Origin: Flavobacteriaceae bacterium
Lineage (GTDB): Bacteria; Bacteroidota; Bacteroidia; Flavobacteriales; Flavobacteriaceae
Assembly (NCBI GenBank): GCA_025800395.1
Contig: JAOXRU010000075.1
Span: forward strand, 62,001 to 126,000
DNA: 64,000 nt
Direction of reading: 5' to 3'
This document shows, one piece after another, positions 33,300 to 52,269 of the stretch. Each line of letters starts with the position of its first letter. Positions within the stretch are counted from its first letter, which is position 1. The notes beneath the pieces are model-generated. The model was not told where the DNA came from. It did not search any database and saw nothing but the letters and a program-made list of their open reading frames with translations. Made by a program: the position numbers and the translations under genes.

Positions 33300-33325
33300 A
33301 ATGGGCTGCGCTACAAATATAAGCT

Positions 33326-33823: not shown

Positions 33824-33826
33824 CTA

Positions 33827-34192: not shown

Positions 34193-34195
34193 CTA

Positions 34196-34798: not shown

Positions 34799-34815
34799 CT
34801 TGCTTCGTATTGAAG

Positions 34816-35430: not shown

Positions 35431-36037
35431 CGGACAAGCTTAAGTTTTCTTTTCTATTGGAAAAAATAATATGGGTGTAATCCTGGGAAGGTTCTACAAT
35501 TTTCACCTCCATTACTGTCGCAGTCTTCTTATTAAAGAACAGCTCAAATTGAGCAATATATTGTTTTAACTTCACATCCCTAGGCTGCAATTGGACCCAA
35601 TAGTGTTTGTTGTTTTTCTTATACTGAATATAAAACTGAGCATCATCAAACATATTGCCGTGCACGCTGCTTATCATAAACTCATTGAGTTTTTTAAACA
35701 ACTTGTTTGCGCCCATATCCATATCACTCTTGGTGCCATCATCATCCACCAATAAGCGATTTTCCTTAAAAATAACACTGTATTTATAAGGTTTCGTGTA
35801 TGTCCATTTCACTTTATTTGGTTTTTGGTAAAGCATAAAACCAGTAGACGTAATATCGTTGGCCAAAAAATCGAGATGCTTGTGTTGTACAAAACTACTT
35901 TTAATAGTTCGTACTTGAGTAGCACGCTCCTTCAATGTTTCTTTTAGCTCATTTACTTCGGAAGCAGTCATGTTTTGTTGGGCCATTGCACCACTACCAA
36001 TTAAAAAACACCCTAATAAAATAATTCGTTTAATCAT
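35411..36037 (-). CDS. LolA-like periplasmic lipoprotein-carrier protein
   Basis: 208 residues with a signal peptide (KRIILLGCFLIGSGAMAQ). The LolA fold is indicated by VRTIKSSFVQHKHL, then DITSTGFMLYQKPNKVKWTY and a following strand YSVIFKENRLLVDDDG. LolA carries lipid-modified proteins through the periplasm. A cluster-specific copy suggests carriage of the hydrophobic pigment between MMPL pump and outer membrane. The start overlaps the deacetylase gene by 8 bases. Confidence 0.88.
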   Translation of the reverse strand: MIKRIILLGCFLIGSGAMAQQNMTASEVNELKETLKERATQVRTIKSSFVQHKHLDFLANDITSTGFMLYQKPNKVKWTYTKPYKYSVIFKENRLLVDDDGTKSDMDMGANKLFKKLNEFMISSVHGNMFDDAQFYIQYKKNNKHYWVQLQPRDVKLKQYIAQFELFFNKKTATVMEVKIVEPSQDYTHIIFSNRKENLSLSDAEFSH

Positions 36038-36803
36038 ATGCTTTTATATCCAATAATTGGCTTACTGTTACCGCTTTCCAATTTTTCTTTTTTATCATTA
36101 GCAATAACTGTTCCAAAACAGCTACCGACTTTTCACTGGTGTCGTGCAGCAAAACAATATCTCCAGCTCTAATACGCTTTTCCAAACGTGACACGATCCG
36201 CTCTTTAGACCGCTTGGTGGTATCATAGGTTCTATGACTCCACCCTATGGTTTGTAACTGCAGCTGCTGCGTTGCTTTTGCGATATTGGGATTGGTAACA
36301 CCAAATGCTGGGCGAAACAGACGCATTTTCTTTCCCAATACCACTTGACCAGCTACAAGTGCTTTTTCCAAATCTCTTTCCACCTTCACTTTAGTCCAAA
36401 ATCCTATCGTACGATCATGACTATAGGTATGATTTCCGATACAATGCCCTTCTGCTATGATTTGTTGTGCCAAATCCGGATAGTCCAACATTTTTTCTCC
36501 AATGCAAAAAAATGTAGCTTGGGCTTGGTGCTGTTTCAACAGTTGCAACACTTTGGGCGTAAATTCTGGATGCGGACCATCATCGAAGCTAATCGCAATA
36601 CTGTTTACTTTCTCTGCATTTCGATGCAACATGGGTAAGAAATAATTCCATCGTACATGGAAAGATCCTACCACAATAAGGACCAACCAAAGAAAAACTG
36701 GAAAAAGCACCCAATAAAAGGAAATATTCCATACCAAAAATACCGTTAACAGAGCAATTACTGTTAGCATCACAACAATTCGTATTGGTTGGTGTTTTAG
36801 CAT
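36030..36803 (-). CDS. Membrane-anchored NodB-type polysaccharide deacetylase family protein
   Basis: 257 residues. Two N-terminal helices (about 7-27 and 30-48) anchor a NodB domain with metal-binding Asp75 (SFDDGPH), His125 and His129 (GNHTYSH), and the C-terminal DIVLLHDTS motif. All catalytic residues are present. It would remove an N- or O-acyl group; the substrate in pigment synthesis is unknown. It overlaps the ketosynthase-like gene by 7 bases. Confidence 0.88.
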   Translation of the reverse strand: MLKHQPIRIVVMLTVIALLTVFLVWNISFYWVLFPVFLWLVLIVVGSFHVRWNYFLPMLHRNAEKVNSIAISFDDGPHPEFTPKVLQLLKQHQAQATFFCIGEKMLDYPDLAQQIIAEGHCIGNHTYSHDRTIGFWTKVKVERDLEKALVAGQVVLGKKMRLFRPAFGVTNPNIAKATQQLQLQTIGWSHRTYDTTKRSKERIVSRLEKRIRAGDIVLLHDTSEKSVAVLEQLLLMIKKKNWKAVTVSQLLDIKAYD

Positions 36804-37861
36804 GTTTGCAATAGCACTACACTATGGTATTTTCCTCTATATTGGTTGTACAACAATATGTTTTTTATTGCTGTTGGAGGTTTTCCTTGCAACAACAAGC
36901 TTTTTGGCACCTCTTGCCTTTTCAACACTTGAACCGCAGTCCAAAATCCGAAAGAGGAGGCCGTAAAATACTCTCCAGACAAATGTTTGTATGCCAAGGC
37001 TGGTGTATTGGCCAATTGGCCTTGCATCAGGGTATCGTACCAAGAATCAAATGTGACATCGCCATTTTTTCCAAGTACCATCAAATCTATATCCGCTAGT
37101 TTCATTTGGTGAGACCTTACAAAATCAGCCATAGTTTCATCAAGAGTTTCTTGGCTTAGCGTATTCCACATATCCATGCCTACTACACGAGCATAGCTAT
37201 TGTCTTGTTGGATATTGGACAACACAAAAAAGCTGGCACCCTCTCCAAAAATACTACCCGAAGTATTCGATTCATACAATCGATCGGATTGGATGTTTTC
37301 TGGCTTGATATGTCCTAGCAATTGATACAAGGTATACGTATGCTTTCCTATTTCATCTACCCCTCCAATAAGCACTTGTTGTCCTTCATTACTCGCCAGC
37401 ATCATGGAGGCGTCCAACAAACTAGATTCGAAAGAAGTAGCACCATGCACATACGTAAAATTATAAGCATTGCACTGCATAGCTAAGGCTATTTGTCCGG
37501 CAACTGTATTGTGCGTAGACTGTATAAAAGGGGTTGGGGTAAGATATTGTTCATCGTTGTCGATAATGGCACTCACAAATTTCTCGGATTCTATCAAGCA
37601 GCCCATTCCTGTGCCTGTAATAATTCCATCCAATTGCGCTACATCGGCATTGGCAACCGCTTGTTTTCCAGCAACCACACCCATTTTTATCCCCTTGGCC
37701 ATTCGACGTGCTGCTGCTCTCGGTATAAAATCGGTGTATTTTGGATTTAGAGCAGCCAAAATATTTTCTTCATACCGCTTAACCTCTTCTAAAAAGCCTT
37801 CGTTTTCAAAAGTTTCTTGGGCAGAAATGGCTACGGCGCTATTGATGTATACCTGTTTCAT
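36797..37861 (-). CDS. Ketosynthase-like protein lacking the active-site Cys (chain-length-factor type)
   Basis: 354 residues from the ATG at 37861, 4 bases after the next KS stop; the ORF is open upstream to 37936. It has a thiolase fold like KAS II, but the position of the nucleophile (TVSxACxSG in active enzymes) reads YVHGATSFESS, with Thr142 where Cys should be. The His motifs are also missing. This matches the chain-length-factor partner of aryl polyene synthases. It probably forms a heterodimer with the active KS encoded just upstream. Confidence 0.82.
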   Translation of the reverse strand: MKQVYINSAVAISAQETFENEGFLEEVKRYEENILAALNPKYTDFIPRAAARRMAKGIKMGVVAGKQAVANADVAQLDGIITGTGMGCLIESEKFVSAIIDNDEQYLTPTPFIQSTHNTVAGQIALAMQCNAYNFTYVHGATSFESSLLDASMMLASNEGQQVLIGGVDEIGKHTYTLYQLLGHIKPENIQSDRLYESNTSGSIFGEGASFFVLSNIQQDNSYARVVGMDMWNTLSQETLDETMADFVRSHQMKLADIDLMVLGKNGDVTFDSWYDTLMQGQLANTPALAYKHLSGEYFTASSFGFWTAVQVLKRQEVPKSLLLQGKPPTAIKNILLYNQYRGKYHSVVLLQTC

Positions 37862-37865
37862 ATAA

Positions 37866-39068
37866 CTACGGCTCAAGGGTAAATATAATAGTACTACAAT
37901 TCCCTCCAAACCCCAAGGAATTGGAGAGCACTGCATTTATTTTTTTGTCTTTTAATTCTAATTCGGGACGCAATGGAATTTCTTCCATGGGTGTCTGATA
38001 ATTGAGATTTGGGAAAAGTTTTTGGTTTTGCAAAGCCAAGACTGCGTACACTGCCTCTACCCCACCTGCTGCTGCAAGGGTATGTCCGGTATAAGGCTTG
38101 GTAGAAGAAAATTCTGGTACGCCATTTTTAAATACACGCATAAGCGCCCTTCCTTCGGAAAGATCATTATTTCTAGTTGCCGTGCCATGCGCATTGATAT
38201 AATCTATCTGTTCTGCCTTCATATTGGCTACCGCCAAAGCCTTTTCCATGGCCAAGGTAGCACCGTCTCCATTTTCTGACGAGGCCGTCTGATGAAAGGC
38301 GTCGTTGGCATTGCCATAACCTTTTACATAAGCTAGAACTTCTTTGTTTTCTGCCGACACCACTGCCTCGGACTCCAATACCAAGTAGGCTGCTGCCTCT
38401 CCTAGGTTTAAACCTTTTCTATTTTGATCGAAAGGGGTGTTTTTGTCATCCGAAAGTATCATTAAAGTATTAAAACCATTGATGGTGAACTTCGACAAAC
38501 AATCGCTTCCTCCTACAATTACCCGATCTAGTTTGCCAGATTTTATAAGTCGCGCACCAAACATAATGGCATTTGCTGCAGAAGAACATGCGGTGCTAAT
38601 AGTGGTTACCAAACTCTGAGATACTCCAAGTTGCTCTGCCATTTTTTCGGCAGCATCCCCAGCATGATGACCAGGTACAAAACGCCTTAGATCGGCATCT
38701 TCCAGATATTTATAATAGTGCTTTTCGGTAAAATCCATACCCCCTACGGAAGTAGCAGATACGATACCTGTTTTATAGGCATGCATATCTACTATGCCGG
38801 CTTGTGCAACTGCTTCTTTGGCTGCCAGAACCCCCAAAAGTGTGGTACGGGTATAATTGTGATTTGACTCCAAATCTAGTGCTGCCTCCATGGCTGTATT
38901 GGACATGCCTATCTCCCCAACCTTGATGCTGTCTTTTAGATTGGTTTGAATTTTCTCTACCGTTCCTATACCACATCTTCCTGCAAGTAGAGCGTTGTAG
39001 TTTTCGGATACATTGTTTCCAATGGCCGAAATAATACCCATACCAGTTATGGCAACCCCTTTACTCAT
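37866..39068 (-). CDS. Beta-ketoacyl-ACP synthase (KAS II type)
   Basis: 400 residues with a full catalytic triad: Cys161 (ISTACSSAANAI), His294 (INAHGTATRND-type loop) and His329 (KPYTGHTLAAAGG). It condenses malonyl-ACP with the growing chain. It lies immediately upstream of the Cys-less ketosynthase, implying a KS-CLF pair that builds the polyene. The start at 39068 matches the family MSKGVAITGMGI. Confidence 0.93.
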   Translation of the reverse strand: MSKGVAITGMGIISAIGNNVSENYNALLAGRCGIGTVEKIQTNLKDSIKVGEIGMSNTAMEAALDLESNHNYTRTTLLGVLAAKEAVAQAGIVDMHAYKTGIVSATSVGGMDFTEKHYYKYLEDADLRRFVPGHHAGDAAEKMAEQLGVSQSLVTTISTACSSAANAIMFGARLIKSGKLDRVIVGGSDCLSKFTINGFNTLMILSDDKNTPFDQNRKGLNLGEAAAYLVLESEAVVSAENKEVLAYVKGYGNANDAFHQTASSENGDGATLAMEKALAVANMKAEQIDYINAHGTATRNNDLSEGRALMRVFKNGVPEFSSTKPYTGHTLAAAGGVEAVYAVLALQNQKLFPNLNYQTPMEEIPLRPELELKDKKINAVLSNSLGFGGNCSTIIFTLEP

Positions 39069-39072
39069 TTTC

Positions 39073-39330
39073 TTATTTTGTTCTATTGGCTTCGATATAT
39101 GTAGCCATTACTTCTACATTCTCAAATATCTTCTTCCCTTCTTTTGGATCGGTGATTTTGATTCCGTAATCTTTATCCAACATTACGATAAGCTCTAAGG
39201 CATCTATAGAATCTAAACCTAAACCATCGCCAAACAAAGGCTCTGTATCTCCCATTTCCTCCACAGTCATATCCTCTAAGTTCAATTGTTCGATGATCTT
39301 TTCTTTGATTTCTTGCTTTAGTGCATCCAT
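39073..39330 (-). CDS. Acyl carrier protein
   Basis: 85 residues. Phosphopantetheine is attached at Ser41 in GLGLDSIDALEL. The protein is acidic and helical, of normal ACP length. It is placed just before the KS-CLF genes, which are its probable partners. It is one of two ACPs in the cluster. Confidence 0.95.
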   Translation of the reverse strand: MDALKQEIKEKIIEQLNLEDMTVEEMGDTEPLFGDGLGLDSIDALELIVMLDKDYGIKITDPKEGKKIFENVEVMATYIEANRTK

Positions 39331-39335
39331 ATTCT

Positions 39336-39953
39336 CTATTCTAAATTATATAAAGTTCTAATATTGTCTTTTGTATGCGATATTTCTCCATTATAACCAA
39401 CCTTGTACATAAAAGAATTATAATTTTCCCCTTCCAATTCTACCCATGCACACAATACGCTATTGGCTCTTTTTTCTTTTAATAAGATCTCCGCATAATT
39501 GTGTAACAGCTCTGCATTAAACGTTTCAAAGATAAAAAAACTATTCTCCGAACATAGTTTGTGCCGTATACTAATTTCTCCTACACTTATATTTGGTAAG
39601 GTATACACAAAAACTGCTGGACTAGGAAAATACTGTTGTGCGTCTTGTATACTTTCTTGGTGTTTATAATCGGTATCCAAACTAGAAGCCTTATTCGAAA
39701 AAACCAAGGCTACTTCATCATCCAATTCCGCATCCGCAAGTGGCGCTTCCAAAAGCAACTCTGCCCCCAAAAAAGCAAGCTTGCTGAGCCTGTCCATTTT
39801 AAAGAATTTGGCATAATTTAAGCCCAAATGCTTATAAGAGGTTTTTATGAAAGAATTAAAATCTTCTCCTTTCGCCTCAAAAACGGTTTTTCCATTATGC
39901 AACATTCGCGCATCTTGTATATGACTATATGCCTCTATGAAATACTGCTGCAT
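39336..39953 (-). CDS. Ketosynthase-like half protein
   Basis: 205 residues that resemble only the N-terminal half of a beta-ketoacyl synthase: DEVALVFSNKASSLDTD, then SPAVFVYTLPNISVGEISIRHKL, a KS dimer-interface motif. The region around the expected nucleophile (LCSENSFFIF) lacks the ACxSG motif, and there is no C-terminal half with catalytic His. It is a whole gene between intact neighbours rather than a broken one, so it is probably a regulatory or structural partner. Non-catalytic role inferred. Confidence 0.7.
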   Translation of the reverse strand: MQQYFIEAYSHIQDARMLHNGKTVFEAKGEDFNSFIKTSYKHLGLNYAKFFKMDRLSKLAFLGAELLLEAPLADAELDDEVALVFSNKASSLDTDYKHQESIQDAQQYFPSPAVFVYTLPNISVGEISIRHKLCSENSFFIFETFNAELLHNYAEILLKEKRANSVLCAWVELEGENYNSFMYKVGYNGEISHTKDNIRTLYNLE

Positions 39954-39955
39954 GT

Positions 39956-41095
39956 TTATACTTTTTCAAATATTACTGCCGTATTACAACCTCCAAAACC
40001 AGAGGCTGTTTTTATAAACCGGTGAATTTTGGCTTCTCTTGTTTTTTCAATTATCGCAATTGGCTGTGTTACCCCCATGGCATCAAAACCCAACGAACGA
40101 TGCAACTTACCGCTTGCCATACTGTGCAAGCCTAATATACTCTCCAACAAACCAGAAGCACCTAATGTATGTCCAAAATATCCTTTATAACTATTCACTG
40201 GAATATGTTCCATCCCAGCTCGATTAAAAGCAATTGCCTCCATTTCATCGTTAAAAATGGTAGCTGTACCATGAGCGGAAATAAAATCGATGTCTTCCGC
40301 TTTCAAATTGGCTTCTTGCAAACTGTTTTGTATACACCTATAAAGCCCTTCTCCTGTTCTAGAGGGACCAGAAATATGGTTGGCATCGTTAGAATTGGCA
40401 TCTCCAATTATTTCAGCTGAAGTGGGGGTTAGCAAACTGCTGTCATTAGTTAACAAAGCAGCAGCAGCTACTTCTCCTATATTAATCCCTGTTCTATTCT
40501 TGGAATAGGGCTTGCATTTTTCATCACTCAATGCCTGGAAAGATCTAAACCCAGACAAGATAAAGGGTGTAACCAAGTCACCCCCCACTACCAACACATG
40601 ATCGTAAGTGCCATTTGCTATGAGGCGTTTCCCTACAGAAACAGCCATCACCCCAGACACACAGGCGTTGGACAACACCATAGGAGTAGATTGTATATCC
40701 AATGCCTTTTGTAGCTCTTCACCAAGCACCCCCAATCGGGCTCTTTTTTTTGGAAAATCACTATTGGCATCTAAGGCATCTATATTTCCTTTGGTAGTGG
40801 CAACGATTAAACCTACTCTATCATTTATTTCTAAAGATGCTTGTGCAATAACCTGTTTTAAAGCCACTAACATCATTTTTTCTAAAGTAGTATGCCCAGG
40901 GTCCATTTGATGTGTTTTGCAAGCAGCTTCCAACTGATCTTTGGGAACCAAGGAAGTCATTACTGGTACATCAAAGCCTGGCACTTCTTGTTTTTCTAAA
41001 GCAGAAACTTCGTTTGCCACTTGCCCTGCTACTGTTTCGGAATCAAAACCCAAAGCAGAAACGATACTGTGATATGTGATATACACCTTATTCAT
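39956..41095 (-). CDS. Beta-ketoacyl-ACP synthase, second copy
   Basis: 379 residues with Cys145 (SNACVSGVMAV), His275 (ISAHGTATIFND) and His309 (GYFGHTLGASG), so it appears catalytically complete. It is shorter than KAS II at the N-terminus. Its neighbours are a thioesterase upstream (overlap of 8 bases) and the KS-like half protein downstream. It may extend a different chain from the other synthases, for example the alkyl arms of the resorcinol. Confidence 0.9.
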   Translation of the reverse strand: MNKVYITYHSIVSALGFDSETVAGQVANEVSALEKQEVPGFDVPVMTSLVPKDQLEAACKTHQMDPGHTTLEKMMLVALKQVIAQASLEINDRVGLIVATTKGNIDALDANSDFPKKRARLGVLGEELQKALDIQSTPMVLSNACVSGVMAVSVGKRLIANGTYDHVLVVGGDLVTPFILSGFRSFQALSDEKCKPYSKNRTGINIGEVAAAALLTNDSSLLTPTSAEIIGDANSNDANHISGPSRTGEGLYRCIQNSLQEANLKAEDIDFISAHGTATIFNDEMEAIAFNRAGMEHIPVNSYKGYFGHTLGASGLLESILGLHSMASGKLHRSLGFDAMGVTQPIAIIEKTREAKIHRFIKTASGFGGCNTAVIFEKV

Positions 41096-41516
41096 TTAAT
41101 AGCCCTACTTTTTGTTTCCACTCTTCAAAAAACTCTGGCAAGGTCAACCACAAATCTCCGTCTTGGTGTACAAAAACCTGTACCGTTTCTCCTGTGCAAA
41201 CCAATTGCTCTTTTGGGTTATATATCTCGTATTTAAAAATCATTTTAGCCGCTGGACTATCTACAAAAATGGTTTTAATAGTAGCCACATCTCCATAGCG
41301 CAATGGCAATTTGTGCTCACAGGTAGATTTTACAATAGGCGTAGTAAAACCCTTGTCTTTTTGATCTAAATAAGAAATACCATGGTGTCTGCCAAATGCC
41401 TCTCTTCCGTCCTCGAAATACTGTATGTAATTTCCATGCCACACGATCCCCAAAGGATCGGTTTCTACAAAGCGAATGCGAATTTTGCTAACAAAACTAA
41501 TTTCTTTAGACGGCAT
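41088..41516 (-). CDS. Hotdog-fold acyl thioesterase (4-hydroxybenzoyl-CoA thioesterase type)
   Basis: 142 residues. The family motif is intact: ETDPLGIVWHGNYIQYFEDGR, with the catalytic Asp20 and His27. It would release or edit acyl groups from ACP or CoA in the pathway. It overlaps the ABC permease gene upstream and the KS gene downstream. Confidence 0.9.
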   Translation of the reverse strand: MPSKEISFVSKIRIRFVETDPLGIVWHGNYIQYFEDGREAFGRHHGISYLDQKDKGFTTPIVKSTCEHKLPLRYGDVATIKTIFVDSPAAKMIFKYEIYNPKEQLVCTGETVQVFVHQDGDLWLTLPEFFEEWKQKVGLLNE

Positions 41517-42774
41517 TTTTTTTCTGATTATAAATTAGGGCGATAAAAGTAGTAAAACAAAAGAACAGCAGCAACAATAACAACTCTTGCCAAATATCCC
41601 CAAAACTGCCTTGACGCAAAAACAAATCGTAAAATGCATTGAGTCCCCAGTTCATAGGAGAAGCTTTTGCCACCATTTGCATAAAATTAGGCATCACAAA
41701 TACCGGCACCCATACCCCACCTATAGCCGCTAGTATAACAACTAGGGTAGCACCAAAAGGAGCCGACTGTTCTTGTGTATTGGCTATAGTACCCAACAAA
41801 ATTCCAAGACCAATAGCTGCTAATCCGCAAAAAGCAGCTACTACCAAGAGCCAATGCAAATTGTTAGAAAGTTGTAATGCCTCTAAACCAAAATACGGAA
41901 ATACATACATACCTACCAATAGCATGAGCAGAAATTGCAGTATACAAACAATGGTGTAATTGATGATTTTTCCAGCTAATACCGTTGCATAAGATGTAGG
42001 TACGGTTTGCATTCGAACAAAAGTTCCTTGATTTTTTTCTTTAACCAAATTAATAGAAAGCGGTACAATTATAAAGAAAATAGCAAACAAAGACCAAGCA
42101 GGCACATTGTGCTGTACCGCATTAGGAATTACTAGCTTAGCTCCTTTTTTTTGAGGAACTTCCTCTTGAAATCTAATCAGGTTGCTTGTTTGAAATTGCA
42201 AACTATCTTCCTCCATTTGCTCTTGAAAGCTTTGGTAGATCGTTTGGGTTTCTACACCCAAAATGATACTCGCTATTCCGCTTTTAACGGCACTCTTAAA
42301 GCTGCTTTGGGTTGCTGGATCAAAATACAGTTTAATCGCCTCTGTTGGCACGGTTTCAAAAGCTTCTTCAACCTTTTCCTCTTCTTCATAACTAAAGCTA
42401 GACAGGATTCCTTCTACATTATGGTCAACCGTAGTTTTTAAGCTTGTACTTATTCCTTTTGGCACCACTATAGCCAATTGATAATTTCCTTTTCGCACGG
42501 AGGTTTTGGCTGTGCCCTCAGATTGTTCTATCACCAATTCTAATGCAGAGTTTTTGGACAAATCTTCTTGAATTTTATTTGCTACTGCTCCCCCATCATT
42601 ATCTACAAATAGGACAGGTATTTTTTCTTCCGATATGGTTTTAAAACTACTATCCTGAATAAGGGTAACCGTAAGAATAAGTACCAATGGCATCACAAAC
42701 AGTATGGCAATACCACCGATATCTCTGCTGAGCAACAAAAACTCTTTGTATGTAGCCGCCAAAATCTTACGCAT
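41506..42774 (-). CDS. ABC-2 type transporter permease
   Basis: 422 residues. One N-terminal helix (about 20-40), a large extracytoplasmic loop (about 45-235), then five helices from about 235 onward, as in the YhhJ/NodJ-like ABC-2 exporters. The segment NLVKEKNQGTFVRMQTVPTSY is typical. It pairs with the ATP-binding protein encoded 5' of it (8-base overlap). It probably exports a pigment component or lipid. Confidence 0.9.
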   Translation of the reverse strand: MRKILAATYKEFLLLSRDIGGIAILFVMPLVLILTVTLIQDSSFKTISEEKIPVLFVDNDGGAVANKIQEDLSKNSALELVIEQSEGTAKTSVRKGNYQLAIVVPKGISTSLKTTVDHNVEGILSSFSYEEEEKVEEAFETVPTEAIKLYFDPATQSSFKSAVKSGIASIILGVETQTIYQSFQEQMEEDSLQFQTSNLIRFQEEVPQKKGAKLVIPNAVQHNVPAWSLFAIFFIIVPLSINLVKEKNQGTFVRMQTVPTSYATVLAGKIINYTIVCILQFLLMLLVGMYVFPYFGLEALQLSNNLHWLLVVAAFCGLAAIGLGILLGTIANTQEQSAPFGATLVVILAAIGGVWVPVFVMPNFMQMVAKASPMNWGLNAFYDLFLRQGSFGDIWQELLLLLLFFCFTTFIALIYNQKKNAV

Positions 42775-43510
42775 GGTCTCTCAATGCTTTTCCAGTTAAA
42801 CTAATAAATACATCTTCTAAATATCTCGCATCTGGTGCGTTTGCCACTAAATCTTTTGGTTTACCAACAGTAATTAGCTCCCCATTATCGATAATTCCAA
42901 CACGAGTACAAAAGGTTTCTGCTTCATTTAAATGATGAGAAGTATAAATAATCGTAGTGCCTTTTTCGTTTAAATTTTGCAAATAGGCCATAATGGCATT
43001 TTTAGAATGAACATCCACCCCCACGGTAGGCTCGTCTAGAAACAGTACTTTGGGCTCGTGCAATATACTTGCCAATAAATTCACCCTTCTTTTCATCCCA
43101 CCAGAAAAAACCCTTACTTTTTTGTGAGCAAAAGATGTTAACCCCATCAATTCTAAACCTTCGGCTACCTTTTTCTTTAGTGTTTTCCCATGCAAACCAT
43201 ACATAGCCCCAAAATATTCTAGATTTTCTCTAGCCGTAAGTGTAGGATAAAGTGCGTATTCCTGTGGCACTACACCAATGCGTTGTTGTAATTGCTGCTT
43301 GTTGTCTCTATAGCTAATGCCGTCTATTTGAAAACTACCACTAGTAGGCTTTAACAAACCACACAAAATGGAAATCGCAGTGGTTTTTCCCGCGCCATTG
43401 GGTCCCAACAGTCCAAAGATTTCCTGTTCGGCTATCTTTAAATTTAAATCTGTTAAAGCAGAGCGATCGGAACCCTGATATTGTTTATACAAAGCAATTA
43501 CCTCAATCAT
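42767..43510 (-). CDS. ABC transporter ATP-binding protein
   Basis: 247 residues with Walker A (GPNGAGKTT), signature VFSGGMKRR, Walker B (VLFLDEPTVG) and H-loop (TSHHLNEA). This is the energising subunit for the adjacent ABC-2 permease. It overlaps the BtrH-like gene by 4 bases. Confidence 0.95.
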   Translation of the reverse strand: MIEVIALYKQYQGSDRSALTDLNLKIAEQEIFGLLGPNGAGKTTAISILCGLLKPTSGSFQIDGISYRDNKQQLQQRIGVVPQEYALYPTLTARENLEYFGAMYGLHGKTLKKKVAEGLELMGLTSFAHKKVRVFSGGMKRRVNLLASILHEPKVLFLDEPTVGVDVHSKNAIMAYLQNLNEKGTTIIYTSHHLNEAETFCTRVGIIDNGELITVGKPKDLVANAPDARYLEDVFISLTGKALRDHA

Positions 43511-44505
43511 GATATAGCTTTCTTCAATTTTTTAAACAAGGCTTCTTCCAAATCTGCAATCTGCAATAACTTATCTGCCACAGAAATATAGGTATCGGTT
43601 TTTGCCTGTCTGTTTTTATAAATTCGAGAAGCATCTAGAGCAAAGTCGCGCCAAAGATCTCCTATTTTTGTCATTTCCACTGCGAATTCCTTTAAGGTGT
43701 CGTTTTTTAATACTTCCGACGCTTCTTGCAAAAACGCAGCATAGATATAACGAAAACCTCCTCCACCTGTACCAATCTCCTCCTGCATACGCACCACTTG
43801 CCCGAGATAATGATTTGCTTTTTTGGTGCCGTGCTTCACTGGCCATTTTTTTATAAGTTTAGCAACTGTTCGAATTCCTTTTACACCTACTATAGGTACT
43901 GGCGCCAACATCTCTCTGCAGGTTTGCTTTATTCCTTTTTTTATTGCTGAAGCTAAGGCCAATTCTTTAGGGATGGAAATCGGAAAATACATATGCCCTT
44001 TAGGTGCAAATGCTCCTTTGGCATAACGAACCGCTTCTAATTCGTCTTCTGACAAACTGGTAACACCTTCCATAACTGGATCGCTTATCAAATATCGATC
44101 TGCCTCCTTACCATAAACCACCAAATTGTGAGCATTAAAATGAAAGCGATATTCCTCTGGAAAGTATTTTAAAAGATAAACCCCTACTTGAAGTCCAACT
44201 GGATTATTGTTTGCTAAGTTCTCATCCAAAACCTGTTTTGCAACTTCTGGCTTCTTAAACTTTTGTCTTTTTATTTGAAAACCTACTCGCTTGGCAAATC
44301 GACTAAAAATAGTTCCAGGCATAGAACGGTAAGTAAGTGCAGGCGCATGATTTACTTTTAAAAAAGGTATGTAACAAAACAACAAACCAGAGCCAATACC
44401 AAATACCATAGGCTCAGATACTTCAAAACCATGAAAGTTCAACAAGTTTCTTACTACGCCGTTTTCACAATGCGCAGATTGTTTGTGTTCAAAATCTATC
44501 TTCAT
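43507..44505 (-). CDS. BtrH-like N-terminal domain protein (candidate ACP-dependent acyltransferase)
   Basis: 332 residues. The first ~145 residues fit the BtrH_N fold: Cys13 (AHCENGVVRNLL), His126 (FNAHNLVVYG) and Asp142 (YLISDP) make a plausible papain-like triad. The C-terminal ~130 residues are helical, as in DUF4872. In butirosin biosynthesis BtrH moves an acyl chain from an ACP to a sugar amine. Here the family fits transfer of the polyene acyl group from ACP to the resorcinol hydroxyl. That step is a hypothesis. Confidence 0.82.
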   Translation of the reverse strand: MKIDFEHKQSAHCENGVVRNLLNFHGFEVSEPMVFGIGSGLLFCYIPFLKVNHAPALTYRSMPGTIFSRFAKRVGFQIKRQKFKKPEVAKQVLDENLANNNPVGLQVGVYLLKYFPEEYRFHFNAHNLVVYGKEADRYLISDPVMEGVTSLSEDELEAVRYAKGAFAPKGHMYFPISIPKELALASAIKKGIKQTCREMLAPVPIVGVKGIRTVAKLIKKWPVKHGTKKANHYLGQVVRMQEEIGTGGGGFRYIYAAFLQEASEVLKNDTLKEFAVEMTKIGDLWRDFALDASRIYKNRQAKTDTYISVADKLLQIADLEEALFKKLKKAIS

Positions 44506-44506
44506 G

Positions 44507-44908
44507 CTATCCTTTAAAATTCTTTAGTTCTTCCACACTTATTTGAAACACTTTGGCATACTTCTCCAACTGCTTTGGTCGTAATTTTTTAAATATATTT
44601 GGTTTAAAATGTCTTTTAACGCGCCATTGCCACATTCCTATGTAGGCTGCCAAAATAGGAAGATCCATTCTATGCACCTCCATAAAATATACAATAGGAC
44701 TAGCCTTACCCATACGTATTTCTTCTAAGGCTTCAGCTTTCCTTCTTTCTATTTCTTCCAAGGCGTTATCTAAAGCTATGGTTTTTGGCTCCCATCCTTG
44801 AGATAAAGCAGTGGTATATTTCCCTTCTTCATCTACAGCATAACAAAGCTCTTTAAACCCTTTTTTAGAAAGGCCACTCCGATCTTGTGGTACTTCTTTG
44901 CGTTTCAT
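44507..44908 (-). CDS. Uncharacterised 133-residue pigment-cluster protein
   Basis: 133 residues from the ATG at 44908, which overlaps the preceding stop as ATGA; the longer ORF to 44992 runs inside the dehydratase gene. It is basic at the C-terminus and helical, with no signal peptide. The segment ALEEIERRKAEALEEI is likely a coiled coil, and KLRPKQLEKYAKVFQISVEELKNF looks like a helix-turn-helix-like helical tail. It lies 1 base before the BtrH-like gene and might act with it. No family recognised. Confidence 0.65.
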   Translation of the reverse strand: MKRKEVPQDRSGLSKKGFKELCYAVDEEGKYTTALSQGWEPKTIALDNALEEIERRKAEALEEIRMGKASPIVYFMEVHRMDLPILAAYIGMWQWRVKRHFKPNIFKKLRPKQLEKYAKVFQISVEELKNFKG

Positions 44909-45363
44909 GCCTTGAGTTCTTGTATGATTAAATTTATTTCTGCTTCGATACTTAAATTGCTTGCTACATAAGATTTCGCTTTCATGGTGCACATCACAAA
45001 CTCTGCGGTATCCAATCTGCTCTTTAAGCTTGCCTCTGTATACAACCAGGTTCCACTAGCAGGCAACTGATGCATTTGCACCTTTTTTATGCCACTTATA
45101 AAGCCAATTAATTTGGTTTTATCTCTTTGGTTTTCCTCTACAAAATAACTCTGACCTACCACAGAAGAACAAGATTGCGCCAAATTCTCAATCAGCCCTT
45201 CCTCTACCAATTTCCCAGAACGAATAAACAACCCTTTTTCTGGTATCCAATACCTAGTTTTTACTGTTTTGGCATCTATGTGTATCACCTCATCTACCAT
45301 CAGCATCGGATTCCGATGCGGCAAGAAGCTTTTCACATCTATATGTTTCTCTTCTGGCAACAT
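44905..45363 (-). CDS. Hotdog-fold ACP dehydratase-like protein (ApeP/FabZ type)
   Basis: 152 residues. It begins with a FabZ-like FLPHRNPMLMVDEV, with the catalytic-type His in PHR. The central helix region (GLIENLAQSCSSVVG) holds an acidic residue at the position of the catalytic Glu. It is one of two tandem hotdog proteins resembling aryl polyene dehydratases. It probably dehydrates 3-hydroxyacyl-ACP in chain building. The start abuts the preceding gene's stop. Confidence 0.85.
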   Translation of the reverse strand: MLPEEKHIDVKSFLPHRNPMLMVDEVIHIDAKTVKTRYWIPEKGLFIRSGKLVEEGLIENLAQSCSSVVGQSYFVEENQRDKTKLIGFISGIKKVQMHQLPASGTWLYTEASLKSRLDTAEFVMCTMKAKSYVASNLSIEAEINLIIQELKA

Positions 45364-45800
45364 TAAGACGCAATCACAGTTTTCATTTCCCCACTAGCAA
45401 TTTGTTCTCCGTCTACAGTTACCAAAACTTCCACCATGGTAACTCCCATTATATCGTACAATATATGCACTTTTGTCTGGATTTCTTCGCCTATTGCTAC
45501 CAAACGCTGTATTGCTATTTTTTTTATCGCACCTATATAACCAACAGGCGGCTCTTCCTTGGCCAAGGCATATTTATAGCCTGTATGCAAAGCTACGCTT
45601 TGTGCCATATGCTCTATGATGCCCGGAGCTTGCAAAAATCCAGAGCCACAAAAGATATTGGATTCTTTTACTGTGAATCCAGTTTCAATGGTGGTCTCTG
45701 TAAAAGAAAACATTTTATCTACCATTAGGATGGGATCTGCATGTGGCAACAAATCAGCCACAAGATCTGCATCTAATATTTTATGGATAACAGTCTCCAT
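45363..45800 (-). CDS. Second hotdog-fold ACP dehydratase-like protein
   Basis: 145 residues with DLLPHADPILMVDKM and APGIIEHMAQSVALHTGYK, the same two hotdog motifs as its neighbour (His near 20, Glu near 83). The two may work as a heteromer, as ApeI/ApeP-type pairs are thought to. It shares a base with the next gene and follows darB after 1 base. Confidence 0.85.
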   Translation of the reverse strand: METVIHKILDADLVADLLPHADPILMVDKMFSFTETTIETGFTVKESNIFCGSGFLQAPGIIEHMAQSVALHTGYKYALAKEEPPVGYIGAIKKIAIQRLVAIGEEIQTKVHILYDIMGVTMVEVLVTVDGEQIASGEMKTVIAS

Positions 45801-45801
45801 A

Positions 45802-46938
45802 CTAGCAAACCGTTAAATAAGCATAAGCATACGAAAATCTGGCACTTTCTGGTACAGATAGTAAAATACGATCTCCTTTTTTCAAATCGTTACTAGCAGC
45901 CAACTCTTCCAACATCAAATAGATGGAAGCTGCGCCTACGTTTCCAACCTTGTAGAGATTCATAAACCAATTGTCCCAACCAATTTCAAAATCTTGTTTT
46001 ACCATTTCATTGTACAATCTTTCTTTGAAATAGTAAGAAGAAATATGCGGTAGGTAGTAATCTACATCTGCTGCTCCCAATTGGTGCTTTTCCATTGCCC
46101 ATTTCATACTTTCGACCCCTTTTACCAAGATGTTTTCTCCGAGCAATTTGGCGTCTTGTTTTAATGCAAATATAGATTGCTGCATCCACTCCATAGGCGT
46201 ATACTCACTCCAAGACCTTAGGCTTCCATTCTCTAATTTGTCGGCGCCATTATACATACAGCTCTCCAACTCATTTGCATAGGAATAGCCTTCCATCCAT
46301 TCTATTTTAAAAGACAAATCCCCTTCTGGCTTATCTTTTAGCAAAAAGGCACCTGCGCCATCAGAAAGCATCCAACGTAAAAACTCTTTATGAAATGCAA
46401 TTATTGGCTGTTCTTCTAAAGCCTCTAATTGCTTTACTTCTTCATCAAATTTATTGGATAAAAACCAAGTAGAAGGACGTTCGGATCCCGTGCATATAGC
46501 ATTTTCTACAAGACCCGCTCTCACAGCCATATACCCGTATTTTAAAGCATTCATACCAGAGCAACAAGCGCCAGATGGTGCATTAATCTCTAAATTCGGA
46601 CTATTGGGCAACAAACCATGAACCATAGCTGCGTGGGAAGGAATGAGTTGATCTGGACTAGCAGTACCACAGGATAACAACTGCGCGTCTGACTCTTTAA
46701 AGTCTTCATCAAATAACGCCATCACCGCCTCTTGGGTTAAAGCGGCATTATTGTGCGTTGGATTTCCTTGCTTATCTAGGGCATAGTAGCGCTTCTTTAT
46801 TTGATTGTTGCGCAAAACAATACGTTTGGCAATAGATGCTCTATCATTGATACAGCCCAAAATTTCCTCCATAGCATCATTCTCTACTGCTTCATTAGGA
46901 AGAAACTTAGCTGTCTTGGTTATATATACCTCTTTCAT
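45802..46938 (-). CDS. darB: Ketoacyl synthase III-like DarB, dialkylresorcinol-forming
   Basis: 378 residues from the ATG at 46938 (MKEVYITKTAKFLPNEAVEN). It is a FabH-type thiolase fold with nucleophile region GACCSGMNAL (probably Cys126), a His in YYLPHISSYY and an Asn in VGNVGAASI, the Cys-His-Asn triad. DarB enzymes condense two beta-ketoacyl chains and close the ring to a cyclohexanedione. The neighbouring DarA-like gene confirms the assignment. This makes the alkyl-resorcinol half of flexirubin. Confidence 0.9.
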   Translation of the reverse strand: MKEVYITKTAKFLPNEAVENDAMEEILGCINDRASIAKRIVLRNNQIKKRYYALDKQGNPTHNNAALTQEAVMALFDEDFKESDAQLLSCGTASPDQLIPSHAAMVHGLLPNSPNLEINAPSGACCSGMNALKYGYMAVRAGLVENAICTGSERPSTWFLSNKFDEEVKQLEALEEQPIIAFHKEFLRWMLSDGAGAFLLKDKPEGDLSFKIEWMEGYSYANELESCMYNGADKLENGSLRSWSEYTPMEWMQQSIFALKQDAKLLGENILVKGVESMKWAMEKHQLGAADVDYYLPHISSYYFKERLYNEMVKQDFEIGWDNWFMNLYKVGNVGAASIYLMLEELAASNDLKKGDRILLSVPESARFSYAYAYLTVC

Positions 46939-47009
46939 GTAATTCTTTTGTTCTTTTAACTTCCTATAAAACCACCTAAACACCGCGCATAAAAATGATT
47001 TTATCTGGT

Positions 47010-47936
47010 TTAGTCTTGCTTATATTCTACAGAGGAATAATAAGCCTTCTGCCTTTCAATATGTTTTATCCTAAAAACATAGGTTATCAAAAATACAATA
47101 AAAACAATAGGTGCAATCACCCATATGGCAAATAATAAATAATAATTAAACAATTTCAATAATCTCTTTCTTTTTGCAACATCCTTATTTGTATTGCTTG
47201 TAATAAACTTGGCCCATTTCCCAAACAATATATTGGCTCGCTGATCTGCCAAAACCAAAAACGGCTTCACTTTTACCCCTCCTAGCTTCAACAATTTCGC
47301 TTGCAAGGAATCATAACTCTCCTGCAATAATGCTTTTTCTATTGGCTTACCAAACTTTTTGGCTTCCGCAATGTCTTTATCAGAGACCCCAGGTTTAGGA
47401 AATATGCCTAAATATTTTTCTTTCTTCCCGCTAAACATCCATTGCACTATGGTAATTACGCTTATATGGTTTATATGCCTATCTACCAATGCAATGTTTC
47501 CTACTAACTTCACATCCAATCCCTGCAAATATTTCTTCACCTTTTCTTGCGCCATTATCCACATATTGCGACTGGCATTTAGGGTAATCACAGCTTTGTT
47601 AGACAACAATTTCTTTGCCGCTTCTGACTGCAAAAAAGATGCCGTGGGAATGGAAGGAGACAAATACCATACCGTGTACCCTAATACTATCAAATCATAA
47701 TTGGTATTTAAAACAGCTTCTGGTATTGCTTCTATTGGTTCGGCTTTTTCTAGGAACGACTCTGGAAATGCATCAAAGAAATCGGGCTTCTTCCACGGGA
47801 ATTTAAACTTTCGCTTGCTAGCAATAGGCTGATAGTCTATCTGTACCTGCATTGTATCTATAGAAGAACATACTTGTTTTAAAATTTCTTCTAATTGACC
47901 CGATTGGGAATAGTACAAAACCAATATTTTCTTCAT
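47010..47936 (-). CDS. darA: DarA-like dialkylresorcinol aromatase (flavodoxin-fold)
   Basis: 308 residues. The N-terminus is a flavodoxin-like FMN site (KILVLYYSQSGQLEEI; later LIVLGYTVWYLSPSIPTA). The C-terminal ~50 residues contain one strong membrane helix (LLFAIWVIAPIVFIVFLITYVF), so the protein is membrane-bound. DarA-type proteins oxidise the DarB cyclohexanedione to the aromatic resorcinol. It precedes darB by 71 bases. Confidence 0.9.
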   Translation of the reverse strand: MKKILVLYYSQSGQLEEILKQVCSSIDTMQVQIDYQPIASKRKFKFPWKKPDFFDAFPESFLEKAEPIEAIPEAVLNTNYDLIVLGYTVWYLSPSIPTASFLQSEAAKKLLSNKAVITLNASRNMWIMAQEKVKKYLQGLDVKLVGNIALVDRHINHISVITIVQWMFSGKKEKYLGIFPKPGVSDKDIAEAKKFGKPIEKALLQESYDSLQAKLLKLGGVKVKPFLVLADQRANILFGKWAKFITSNTNKDVAKRKRLLKLFNYYLLFAIWVIAPIVFIVFLITYVFRIKHIERQKAYYSSVEYKQD

Positions 47937-47939
47937 CCC

Positions 47940-48824
47940 TTAGTTTTTAGAATTCGCTTGCCAAAAATCAAAATAATTAAACCACTGCAACGGATAGCGC
48001 GCCAATATTCCTTCTATACTTTTACAATATTCTTCCAACAGGCCTTGGGAATCTCTTCGTTTAAATTGCGCCTGACGGGCGTACAAATGATAGTGTTTAT
48101 TGGTTTCTTTCATCACATAAACAAACAATACTGGTGCTTGCAAACGCGAACTCAATAAAAAAGGTCCTACCGGAAACTTTGCTTTTTCTCCTAGCAAATC
48201 TGCTTGGATGGTTTTAGATCCTTCAAAATATCTATCTCCAGTAAAACACACCAAGCCATTGCTGTCCAAGGCATGATGTATTTCAAAAATATGCGACATA
48301 TCCTCTCGTACGATGATGGTTTTTACCTGAGATTTCCCCGTGACTCCATCCAAATACTGTTGCAATTTTTCGTGCTCTGCATCCGTAGTTACGATATAAA
48401 TGGAAGATTCTATATCGATTTCTGCAAAAAACTTATTGGCTATTTCAAAATTTCCAATATGTGCAGAAATAAGCACCCCACCTTTTTTTTCGCGAAGCAA
48501 TGCTTTAATATGGTCTATCCCATCAAACTCATAGGTGAAATAATCGCGCAGTCCGGAAGAAATAGCTACCTTATCTATAATGGTTTGCCCAAATACAAAA
48601 TAACTTTTGTAAATAGATACAAAGCTCTTCCAAAAACCATAACCCAATCGCTTTCTAAAATAATAATAAATGGATTTGCTGCCGTAATAAGAAAACAAAA
48701 AGAAATAGAATGCCACAAATACCAGCAAGCCATAAGCAGCAACTACCCCTAATTTCTCCATGAGGTAAATAAATATTTTATAGCCCGTTACTGTGCCTCT
48801 CGACTTCCCTTCCCACTGGGTCAT
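47940..48824 (-). CDS. LpxL/HtrB-like acyltransferase
   Basis: 294 residues. An N-terminal membrane helix (about 22-42) is followed by a lysophospholipid/lipid A-type acyltransferase core. The HxxxxE-type motif SAHIGNFEIAN and CFTGDRYFEGS are typical of LpxL relatives. Being inside the pigment operon, it may transfer an acyl chain to the resorcinol or polyene at the inner membrane, rather than to lipid A. Acceptor unknown. Confidence 0.83.
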   Translation of the reverse strand: MTQWEGKSRGTVTGYKIFIYLMEKLGVVAAYGLLVFVAFYFFLFSYYGSKSIYYYFRKRLGYGFWKSFVSIYKSYFVFGQTIIDKVAISSGLRDYFTYEFDGIDHIKALLREKKGGVLISAHIGNFEIANKFFAEIDIESSIYIVTTDAEHEKLQQYLDGVTGKSQVKTIIVREDMSHIFEIHHALDSNGLVCFTGDRYFEGSKTIQADLLGEKAKFPVGPFLLSSRLQAPVLFVYVMKETNKHYHLYARQAQFKRRDSQGLLEEYCKSIEGILARYPLQWFNYFDFWQANSKN

Positions 48825-48836
48825 AGCAAAAAGGTG

Positions 48837-49079
48837 TTATGCTAATTTGTGTTCTATTAAATCGTAAAAGTCTTGCAGTGTAGCCACATCTTTAAAATCT
48901 TCTCCAACCAATTTTACTCCAAAATTAGCCTCTATAGCTACCACTAAGTCTACAAAATCGAGGCTATCCAATTCCAAAGTATCTTTCAAATTGGCATCGG
49001 GGGCGATGTCTCCTTGCTCTACTTCAAATTCATCAACTAAAAAATAGTTGATTTTTTCAATGATTACTGATTTGTCCAT
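48837..49079 (-). CDS. Acyl carrier protein, second copy
   Basis: 80 residues from the ATG at 49079; the ORF extends to 49109 but would overlap the ketosynthase. Phosphopantetheine attaches at Ser39 in TLELDSLDFVDL. It is acidic and helical. It is located 13 bases after the KS stop, so it probably serves that enzyme and the following FabG-dependent cycle. Confidence 0.94.
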   Translation of the reverse strand: MDKSVIIEKINYFLVDEFEVEQGDIAPDANLKDTLELDSLDFVDLVVAIEANFGVKLVGEDFKDVATLQDFYDLIEHKLA

Positions 49080-49092
49080 TCTTTTGACTATC

Positions 49093-50310
49093 CTATATTT
49101 TTTTGACAATTAATGCCGAGTTCGTTCCTCCAAATCCGAACGAGTTAGACAAAAATACATCAATTTTCTTTTCTACTGTTTTATTCACCAAATTTATTCG
49201 TTGCGCGGCCTCATCTGGTTGTTCTAAATTAATATTTGGTGCCACAAAACCATGTTGCATCATTATCATACTATAAATCACCTCACTAGCACCTGCCATC
49301 CAACACTCGTGCCCGGTCATAGACTTGGTAGAACTCACCTCTGGGCAAGCCTCTCCAAATATTTCAAAAATAGCTTTTGCCTCATTGGCATCTCCCAAAG
49401 GGGTAGATGTTGCATGTGCATTTACATAGTCTATATGTGAAGACTGCATTCCTGCCTGATCTAAAGCCATCTGCATAGCCCTGGCAGGCCCTTCCACATT
49501 GGGGGTAGAGATATGATCCCCATTGGAAGAAAACCCGTAACCAACCACTTCACCTAGTATAGTAGCACCCCGCGCCATAGCAGATTCATAACTCTCTAAT
49601 ATCAGTGTTGCTGCACCACCACTTGGCACCAAGCCATCTCTATTGCTATCAAAAGGCCTACACGCTTGCTCTGGGCTATCTTCTCTTGTAGAGAAAACCC
49701 CCAAACCATCAAAACTTGCCATAGCGTATTGATTTGTTTCTTGCGCACCACCACAAATTACCATCTCTTGCAAACCTCCTTTAATAAGATTATACCCCAA
49801 ACCAATAGAATGCGAACCACTTGCACAAGCTGCACTTACAGTAAAGTTGATTCCTTTTAACTTAAACAAGGTAGCCAAATTCATGGTTACGGTGGAATTC
49901 ATAGCTTTAAATATAGCACCAGAACCCACCAAAGTAGTATCCTTCTTTTTTCTAACAGTATCTAAAGAATCTATAACCGACTTTGCTGTACTATCGTTCC
50001 CGTAGATGATTCCTATATCGCGTTGGTTTAAAAAATCGTCATCTATACCTGCTTGCACAAATGCCTCCATAGTGGCTACATAAGCATACAAACTTTCTTC
50101 ACCCATACTAATACGTTGCCTTCTAGACAATTGCTTCTTTAGGTTAGGCGTGGGCAACTTTCCGGTTAAACCAGAGCGGTAACCAAAATCTTTTCTGTCG
50201 GCATCTAATACGATACCAGATTTTCCTGCAAATAAAGATTGTCTCACTTCTTCTATATTTAATCCTATGCAAGAATAAATTCCCATTCCGGTGATGACTA
50301 CTCTACTCAT
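49093..50310 (-). CDS. Beta-ketoacyl-ACP synthase, third copy (FabF-like)
   Basis: 405 residues, the closest in the window to canonical FabF. Cys162 (SAACASGSHSIG), His299 (NAHATSTPLGD) and His334 (KSMTGHECWMAGA) are all in place, and the C-terminus has SNSFGFGGTNSALI. It pairs with the ketoreductase and ACP around it as one elongation module. Confidence 0.94.
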   Translation of the reverse strand: MSRVVITGMGIYSCIGLNIEEVRQSLFAGKSGIVLDADRKDFGYRSGLTGKLPTPNLKKQLSRRQRISMGEESLYAYVATMEAFVQAGIDDDFLNQRDIGIIYGNDSTAKSVIDSLDTVRKKKDTTLVGSGAIFKAMNSTVTMNLATLFKLKGINFTVSAACASGSHSIGLGYNLIKGGLQEMVICGGAQETNQYAMASFDGLGVFSTREDSPEQACRPFDSNRDGLVPSGGAATLILESYESAMARGATILGEVVGYGFSSNGDHISTPNVEGPARAMQMALDQAGMQSSHIDYVNAHATSTPLGDANEAKAIFEIFGEACPEVSSTKSMTGHECWMAGASEVIYSMIMMQHGFVAPNINLEQPDEAAQRINLVNKTVEKKIDVFLSNSFGFGGTNSALIVKKI

Positions 50311-50324
50311 ATTACTTGTTGTTT

Positions 50325-51050
50325 TTAATAGATTCCTCCATTAATATTAATCACTTCTCCTGTAATATAAGACGATTTTTTAGACGCCAAAAAAGCCACC
50401 AAATCTGCTACTTCTTCCGCCTCTCCAAATCTATTGGCAGGTATCATACGTTTTAGCTCATTTTCATCCATCTCTGCAGTCATATCGGTTTTAATAAAAC
50501 CAGGTGCTACCGCATTTACCGTTATTTTTCTTTTTGCCACCTCTTGCGCCAATGCCTTGGTGGCGCCTACCAAAGCAGCCTTAGCAGCAGAGTAGTTGGT
50601 TTGCCCTGGTGTACCTTTTACCCCAGAGACCGAAACCATATTAATAATGCGCCCATAGCGGTTGCGCAATAATTTCTGAATTAAATGATTGGTTACATTA
50701 TAAAATCCATCTAAACTAGTGCGAATTACGCTATTCCAATCTTCTTGCGGCATCCACATAAACAAACCGTCTTTGGTAATACCTGCATTGTTTACAATCA
50801 CCTCTACCAAATCGTCTGGATGCGCTTCTTGCCAAGCATCTAAGGCAGTGGTTACCGCTTCTCTGTCTGCTACATCAAACTGCACTATAGCACCTTTACC
50901 ACCAAGTGCCTCTACTTCTTGTAAGGCGTCTTCTGCCGCAGCCTTATTGCTGTGATAATTAATTAATACTGCATAATTGGTAGTTGCTAACTTCTCACAA
51001 ATAGCTCTCCCTATTCCTCTTGATCCTCCGGTAACTAATGCCCACTTCAT
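50325..51050 (-). CDS. fabG: 3-oxoacyl-ACP reductase
   Basis: 241 residues; a short-chain dehydrogenase with VTGGSRGIGRA at the NADPH site, NNAG, and catalytic Ser140, Tyr153 and Lys157 (TNYSAAKAAL). This would be the only ketoreductase in the cluster, so it probably serves all its ketosynthases. It lies 12 bases after the WG-repeat gene stop. Confidence 0.93.
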   Translation of the reverse strand: MKWALVTGGSRGIGRAICEKLATTNYAVLINYHSNKAAAEDALQEVEALGGKGAIVQFDVADREAVTTALDAWQEAHPDDLVEVIVNNAGITKDGLFMWMPQEDWNSVIRTSLDGFYNVTNHLIQKLLRNRYGRIINMVSVSGVKGTPGQTNYSAAKAALVGATKALAQEVAKRKITVNAVAPGFIKTDMTAEMDENELKRMIPANRFGEAEEVADLVAFLASKKSSYITGEVININGGIY

Positions 51051-51062
51051 GCTTTATGCTCT

Positions 51063-52211
51063 TTATTTTACGTTTACAAATGCCTCTACAAATTTAAACC
51101 ATTTTCCGCCCAATGGCTCGCCGTTTTTATTTATAAAGCCCCAATTCTTCTTATGTGTTACACGAGCCCATCCGTTTAGAAAACCTTTGGTTTCTCCCAT
51201 ACGAAACAACTGTGCAAAACCGCCCGTAGATATCCCATATCTCATTGGCACTACCAATTCCCCTTGGGTGTTGATAAATCCCCACATTTTCTTTTCCTTA
51301 ACCGGCGCCAAACCATCTTCACTAAATATTTCTGCGTCTCGGTACTGCTCTTCTACTACCATTTCGCCTTTGGTATTTACATAACCCCATAACTTCCCAG
51401 TGGTAGACACTGGCGCCAAACCATTTACAAAGGCACGTACCTTTTTGTAGGTTGGTTTAATTAACCAATTTCCTTTCTTATCTACAAAACCCCATAGTTT
51501 ACTAGCATCGGATGCATAGGTGTATGTTCCGCCAGGCCGAAAATCTTTTATTTTTACCGCACCCTCTAAGGCTTTAAATTTCTTATTCACCAAAACTCCA
51601 GCTTGCTGACTTTTCATAACGGTTACCACCCCATTTTCCAATACAGCTCCTATGCTTTGATAATTTGCCGGCACTACTACTTTACCATTTCTATCTAAAA
51701 GCCCCCAATTGTTATTGTCTTTAAACTTGGCCAAACCATTTTTAAAATTTAATATTTTCTGATATATTGGTTCTACCAATACGTTTCCTTGGTTGTCTAT
51801 TAAACCAACTAGCTTATTTCTGCGAATAAACGCCCTTCCATCCTTAAAATCATATAGCTTATCACTCTGGGGCATCTCTAACTCTTTTCCTTTTTTATCT
51901 ATATAAAACCAACGCTTATCCTTGGCTACAACAGCAACTCCTCCTCCAAAGGCCTTTACCTTATTGTAACGGGCAGCAATTACTTGCTCTCCTTTCAAAT
52001 TTAAAAAACCCCAAAGCTTTCCTTCTTTAAAGGCTATCAACCCATCTGCGTAATTCCCCAATTTATCAAAGCTAGACCCTATTATCCAAGCGCCTGTTTC
52101 ATCTATTACCCCAAATTTGCCATTGTTGTCTCTAACTGTTGCCACACGTTTTTGTGCAAACAACTGCGAACCCAATAGTAGGCCAACCAATACAATTACA
52201 TGTTTTTTCAT
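51063..52211 (-). CDS. WG-repeat secreted protein
   Basis: 382 residues with a signal peptide (KKHVIVLVGLLLGSQLFAQ). It is made of many WG repeats, each about 25-48 residues with LWGFxNxKGExV-type cores, e.g. LWGFLNLKGEQVI, NWGLLDRNGKVVV, LWGYVNTKGEMVV, MWGFINTQGELVV. These form a beta-rich solenoid, usually for protein binding. Its presence between tyrosine ammonia-lyase and fabG is unusual for an enzyme operon; it may be a scaffold in the envelope. Confidence 0.9.
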   Translation of the reverse strand: MKKHVIVLVGLLLGSQLFAQKRVATVRDNNGKFGVIDETGAWIIGSSFDKLGNYADGLIAFKEGKLWGFLNLKGEQVIAARYNKVKAFGGGVAVVAKDKRWFYIDKKGKELEMPQSDKLYDFKDGRAFIRRNKLVGLIDNQGNVLVEPIYQKILNFKNGLAKFKDNNNWGLLDRNGKVVVPANYQSIGAVLENGVVTVMKSQQAGVLVNKKFKALEGAVKIKDFRPGGTYTYASDASKLWGFVDKKGNWLIKPTYKKVRAFVNGLAPVSTTGKLWGYVNTKGEMVVEEQYRDAEIFSEDGLAPVKEKKMWGFINTQGELVVPMRYGISTGGFAQLFRMGETKGFLNGWARVTHKKNWGFINKNGEPLGGKWFKFVEAFVNVK

Positions 52212-52247
52212 GACTTTATCTTACATTTAAAATTATACCATTAAAGG

Positions 52248-52260
52248 CTAGGGACCCTAG
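52248..52260. promoter_or_regulatory. Palindrome between the ammonia-lyase and WG genes
   Basis: CTAGGG-A-CCCTAG, perfect on either side of the central base, extended by G-T pairs. In the transcript it would form a hairpin in the 58-base gap but is not followed by a long T-run. It could be a processing or attenuation site. Confidence 0.3.
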
Positions 52261-52269
52261 TTTAACTTT

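Follow-up and report, generated by a model that had tools for sequence, protein, structure and literature searches.

DarH, a BtrH-like protein, as the probable acyltransferase joining the polyene and resorcinol halves of flexirubin

DarH, a BtrH-like protein coded within a flexirubin cluster of Flavobacteriaceae, is probably the ester-forming acyltransferase that joins the polyene and resorcinol halves of the pigment. The initial annotation of the window (the whole stretch of 64,000 nucleotides analyzed here) had proposed this role from the letters alone, and it is now supported by an invariant catalytic triad, a fold match along the full length of the protein, co-occurrence with DarB, absence from clusters that make only the polyene, and persistence in genomes without the rival acyltransferases.

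The gene is, as first described, an intact BtrH-like open reading frame on the minus strand, with an ATG start, a product of 332 aa and no internal stop. Both Pfam domains of BtrH-type acyltransferases score above their cut-offs, BtrH_N at residues 12 to 143 (175.8 bits) and DUF4872 at residues 154 to 327 (209.4 bits), and the NCBIfam equivalog model NF053550 (DarH_acyl) is matched along its full length at 505 bits (cut-off 300). The same Pfam search gave no match to a C39 peptidase family above cut-off in DarH, while PF13529 is matched by some distant BtrH relatives. The best 80 contig matches are only close relatives from Bacteroidota, almost all of them Flavobacteriaceae, and no relatives were found on viral contigs or, with a single-sequence search, in the PDB; coiled-coil matches to designed proteins in the PDB profile search were taken as chance. 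Distant BtrH_N/DUF4872 homologues are common on plasmids (45 records from Acinetobacter and 26 from Rhodococcus), and these plasmid matches were rejected as DarH.

Table 1. Features of the flexirubin cluster in the window.
Feature	Position	Strand	Remarks
FlxY coumarate CoA ligase	23919..25238	-	NF053551, 676 bits
C45/AAT Ntn-type acyltransferase or hydrolase	25208..26866	-	Rival candidate; present in most polyene-only clusters
MMPL exporter fused to PlsC-type acyltransferase domain	28388..32089	-	
Polyene/export genes: GT2, dehydratase, OMP, LolB2, LolA, deacetylase, ketosynthases, ACP	32082..41095	-	
4HBT thioesterase	41088..41516	-	Polyene core member
ABC-2 permease	41506..42774	-	
ABC transporter ATPase	42767..43510	-	Start overlaps DarH stop by 4 bp (ATGA)
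DarH, BtrH_N + DUF4872, 332 aa	43507..44505	-	Proposed polyenoyl-ACP:dialkylresorcinol O-acyltransferase
DarG, 133 aa	44507..44908	-	NF053545; ATG at 44908 overlaps dehydratase stop (ATGA)
FabZ-like dehydratase	44905..45363	-	
FabZ-like dehydratase	45363..45800	-	
DarB dialkylresorcinol ketosynthase	45802..46983	-	NF053539, 646 bits (cut-off 550)
DarA	47010..47936	-	Position beside DarB, weak flavodoxin match, recurs beside DarB elsewhere
LpxL-like acyltransferase	47940..48824	-	Rival candidate; present in polyene-only clusters
ACP, ketosynthase, ketoreductase, WG-repeat protein, aromatic ammonia-lyase (flxA type)	48837..53796	-	

The neighborhood also agrees with its first description, with two FabZ-like dehydratases, DarG, DarB and a gene in the DarA position upstream of DarH and an ABC pair downstream (Table 1). 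The genes are tightly packed, as seen from the ATGA overlaps between DarH and the ABC ATPase and between a dehydratase and DarG. The order DarA-DarB-DH-DH-DarG-DarH-ABC-ABC-TE is kept in all 69 Bacteroidota loci with a length of 20 kb or more, one from a strain of F. johnsoniae (L108) among them. A WG-repeat protein between the ammonia-lyase and ketoreductase genes (51063-52211 in the window) is kept in 67 of these 69 loci. In some dar loci, DarH and the ABC pair are accompanied by a separate ACP-ketosynthase-CLF set (loci L168, L174, L175 and L185; genomes G388, G521, G582 and G584).

Cys13, His126 and Asp142, which were correctly numbered when the triad was proposed, are invariant in 70/70 orthologues and also in BtrH homologues of 21 to 28% identity, those from actinobacteria and haloarchaea (down to 21%) included. 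The AlphaFold model of DarH has a mean pLDDT of 84.8 and a pTM of 0.85, built on a shallow alignment of sequences 67 to 76% identical to the query (from the window and related loci), and its confidence is moderate around Cys13 and His126 (block means of 76 and 69). In this model, Cys13 lies just before the first helix, His126 is at the beginning of a strand and Asp142 comes right after the next strand, an order consistent with a papain-like arrangement. A Foldseek search of the PDB with the model gave matches along the entire protein, the DUF4872 half included, to AziU3, CtaG and CcbD, with E values of about 5e-10 to 5e-7 and TM scores of 0.62 to 0.68.

The structural relatives with a known transfer reaction form amides, not phenol esters. 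AziU3, from the azinomycin pathway, is the best Foldseek match and is also the natural-product relative found by sequence profile (E = 1.4e-5); it was solved in complex with AziU2, whereas DarG has no relative of solved structure by profile, AziU2 included. CtaG, from the closthioamide pathway, is only about 10% identical to DarH, but the variants deposited in the PDB (C11A, H128A and D144N, judged from the entry titles) point to a layout like that of C13/H126/D142, with a His-Asp spacing of 16 in both proteins. It was assigned the transfer of 4-hydroxybenzoyl from one carrier protein onto a peptide bound to a second one (PMC6772006); its acceptor is an amine, while a phenol is proposed for DarH. 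CcbD and LmbD, the lincosamide condensation enzymes (identity of about 15%), also take their donor from a carrier protein, the acyl group being loaded on the Cys in a ping-pong reaction before attack by an amine (PMC12945683). Their carrier binding relies on basic residues close to the C terminus, a region in which DarH has mostly conserved lysines (K325, K326, K328 and K329). They differ from DarH in having a Cys-His-Glu triad and an amide product. BtrH itself, from the butirosin pathway, shares the BtrH_N domain, and the Cys, His and Asp of DarH fall inside this Pfam match. The product of BtrH is an amide on an aminoglycoside. PMC10318531 gives the role of BtrH as that of an acyl-carrier-protein:aminoglycoside acyltransferase, whereas the acceptor proposed for DarH is a phenol.

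By this chemistry, Cys13 would first be loaded with the aryl-polyene acyl group by its carrier protein, giving a thioester on DarH. His126, held by Asp142, would activate the phenolic hydroxyl of the 2,5-dialkylresorcinol, and the activated hydroxyl would then attack the thioester and release the ester. What we infer here is that the donor is an ACP and not CoA, along with the acceptor, the type of bond and any help from DarG.

The step had been described as one with no assigned enzyme, which is only partly right, since there is already a named database family and an earlier rival proposal. The name of NF053550, "BtrH-related acyltransferase DarH", covers the protein of the window as a member and gives no donor, acceptor or bond, and Schoner et al. 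suggested in 2014 a "ligase-like enzyme (FlxW)" for the flexirubin ester (PMC3992019). We found no experimental assignment, nor any test of DarH, in the open-access literature searched. Azoarcus makes a polyene-resorcinol hybrid and has a BtrH-like gene in the order darA-darB-darD-darE-ABC, as here; this darE, located after darB and darD, was listed in 2014 as a "BtrH-like peptidase" (PMC3949708). By gene order, DarG and DarH of NCBI appear to be darD and darE of Azoarcus, where the names darG and darH are used for other genes. The novelty of DarH is thus limited, as both the NCBIfam name and the Azoarcus listing precede it.

Among 395 class-level genomes, DarH was found in 63 and canonical DarB in 65, with 62 genomes coding for both, one for DarH only, three for DarB only and 329 for neither. 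DarB-like matches within ORFs of about 620 aa, which we regarded as a different type, were excluded from this count; such ketosynthases, in ORFs of about 617 to 635 aa, occur mostly in genomes without DarH (G182:C12, G258, G275, G415, G457, G550 and G588). With FlxY as a marker for the polyene pathway, the FlxY-positive genomes divide into 57 with both, one with DarH only, three with DarB only and seven with neither (Fisher p = 9.5e-7, a descriptive value that overstates independence because the sampled genomes are related). In 45 genomes DarH and DarB are no more than 6 kb from each other, and in 17 they are not. Contigs are short in most of these 17, but the separation is real on long contigs, where the distance is large in G017, G388 and G462 and about 41 kb in G531, so linkage alone is not enough to explain the co-occurrence.

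DarH is present along with DarB and the polyene genes and absent from polyene-only clusters, the pattern proposed for an ester synthase, with four exceptions. G378, with DarH only, is a MAG that is 78% complete; G382 is a fragmented MAG with DarB on a contig of 5.5 kb and no intact DarH; in G409, DarB is present and DarH is interrupted by stops; and G238, also without an intact DarH, has a solo DarB behind a TetR gene, and the 20 kb examined there contain no DarA. Solo ketosynthases of the DarB type, placed right behind a regulator (TetR, or a helix-turn-helix annotation in L163), were seen at L044:9521-11252 (the unit of G238), L161:7361-9131 and L163:7409-9134, the last two on plasmids of Prevotella and Bacteroides, and neither DarA nor DarH was found near any of them. 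These units are possibly small-molecule signal synthases with their receptor.

Six polyene-only clusters (G118, G238, G395, G444, G463 and G553) are missing the whole DarA-DarB-DarG-DarH-ABC set. They retain the LpxL-like and PlsC-type genes and usually C45, with no nearby C45 gene in G395. The absence of DarH from these clusters indicates that it is dispensable for the polyene half. It is dispensable for the resorcinol half too, as a heterologous host needed only darA and darB to make the resorcinol (PMC3992019).

The C45/AAT protein, which we guess from gene order to be the FlxW of Schoner et al., could make the ester and leave another task to DarH. Besides the 2014 proposal, this has in its favor that C45 homologues are found in 56 of the 59 DarH/DarB genomes tested. 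Nevertheless, C45 is present in five clusters that make only the polyene (G118, G238, G444, G463 and G553), was not found in three genomes with both DarB and DarH (G099, G268 and G305, the last an incomplete MAG), and is missing from the Azoarcus polyene loci as listed (PMC3949708), all of which makes it a very unlikely ester synthase. The compact cluster of G099 is one such case, with DarA-DarB-DarG-DarH-ABC and the polyene core and neither a C45 nor an LpxL homologue found. We consider it unlikely, too, that DarH is a carrier-protein acyltransferase of some other step, such as loading the DarB chain or releasing the polyene as an acid, with the ester made by the LpxL-like or PlsC-type enzyme. 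The chemistry of the family permits other acceptors, and the dar loci with their own ACP-KS-CLF set (the four genomes named above) would fit such a step, but the heterologous resorcinol synthesis by darA and darB alone speaks against it, as does the retention of the LpxL-like and PlsC-type genes in polyene-only clusters.

DarH might instead act in export or maturation, as a C39-like peptidase or an accessory protein for the ABC transporter coded next to it. BtrH_N and the C39 peptidases are related (PMC10318531), a C39-like peptidase is among the weaker fold matches, and the last 4 bp of darH are shared with the ABC ATPase gene. However, the peptidase matches only part of the protein, and the best matches are full-length natural-product enzymes that include the DUF4872 half; no candidate gene for a substrate peptide was apparent by inspection, short of a systematic search. 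Moreover, DarG-DarH occurs without an adjoining ABC pair in G017, G462 and G303, and in G268 the gene immediately next to DarH is the thioesterase. We therefore regard a role in export or maturation as highly improbable. With C45 and the LpxL-like and PlsC-type rivals eliminated, DarH and DarG are left as the candidates, transporter aside, and only DarH has a recognizable catalytic triad. A counterpoint to the role of DarH as the ester-forming enzyme is that DarG and the ABC pair follow much of the same phyletic pattern.

DarG is the least explained part of the set. It precedes DarH in nearly all mapped genomes, at times as an isolated pair (G017, at L047:8883-10343, G462 and G303). A longer ORF of 161 aa reaching 44992 was rejected as an over-extension. 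The protein has no Pfam match above cut-off and no PDB relative by profile, its predicted C-terminal half weakly resembles XRE helix-turn-helix proteins, and a match to Ebola VP30, below cut-off, was taken as chance. A tentative possibility is a phenol O-acyltransferase made of two proteins, in which DarH would supply the Cys triad and DarG would be indispensable, binding not DNA but either the resorcinol or the carrier protein. If so, the pair would be, to our knowledge, the first ester-forming papain-like carrier-protein acyltransferase.

The bond proposed here for DarH is the last one of flexirubin, between the colored polyene half and the resorcinol half of an orange bacterial pigment. A phenol ester, if true, would be a new type of bond for a family known for amides. 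Flexirubins have long been in use as chemotaxonomic markers of Bacteroidota, and darH would then serve as a genetic marker to tell clusters for polyene-resorcinol esters from those for the polyene only. With a named catalytic residue, natural controls in which the gene is absent and a co-varying partner, the ester step becomes directly testable.
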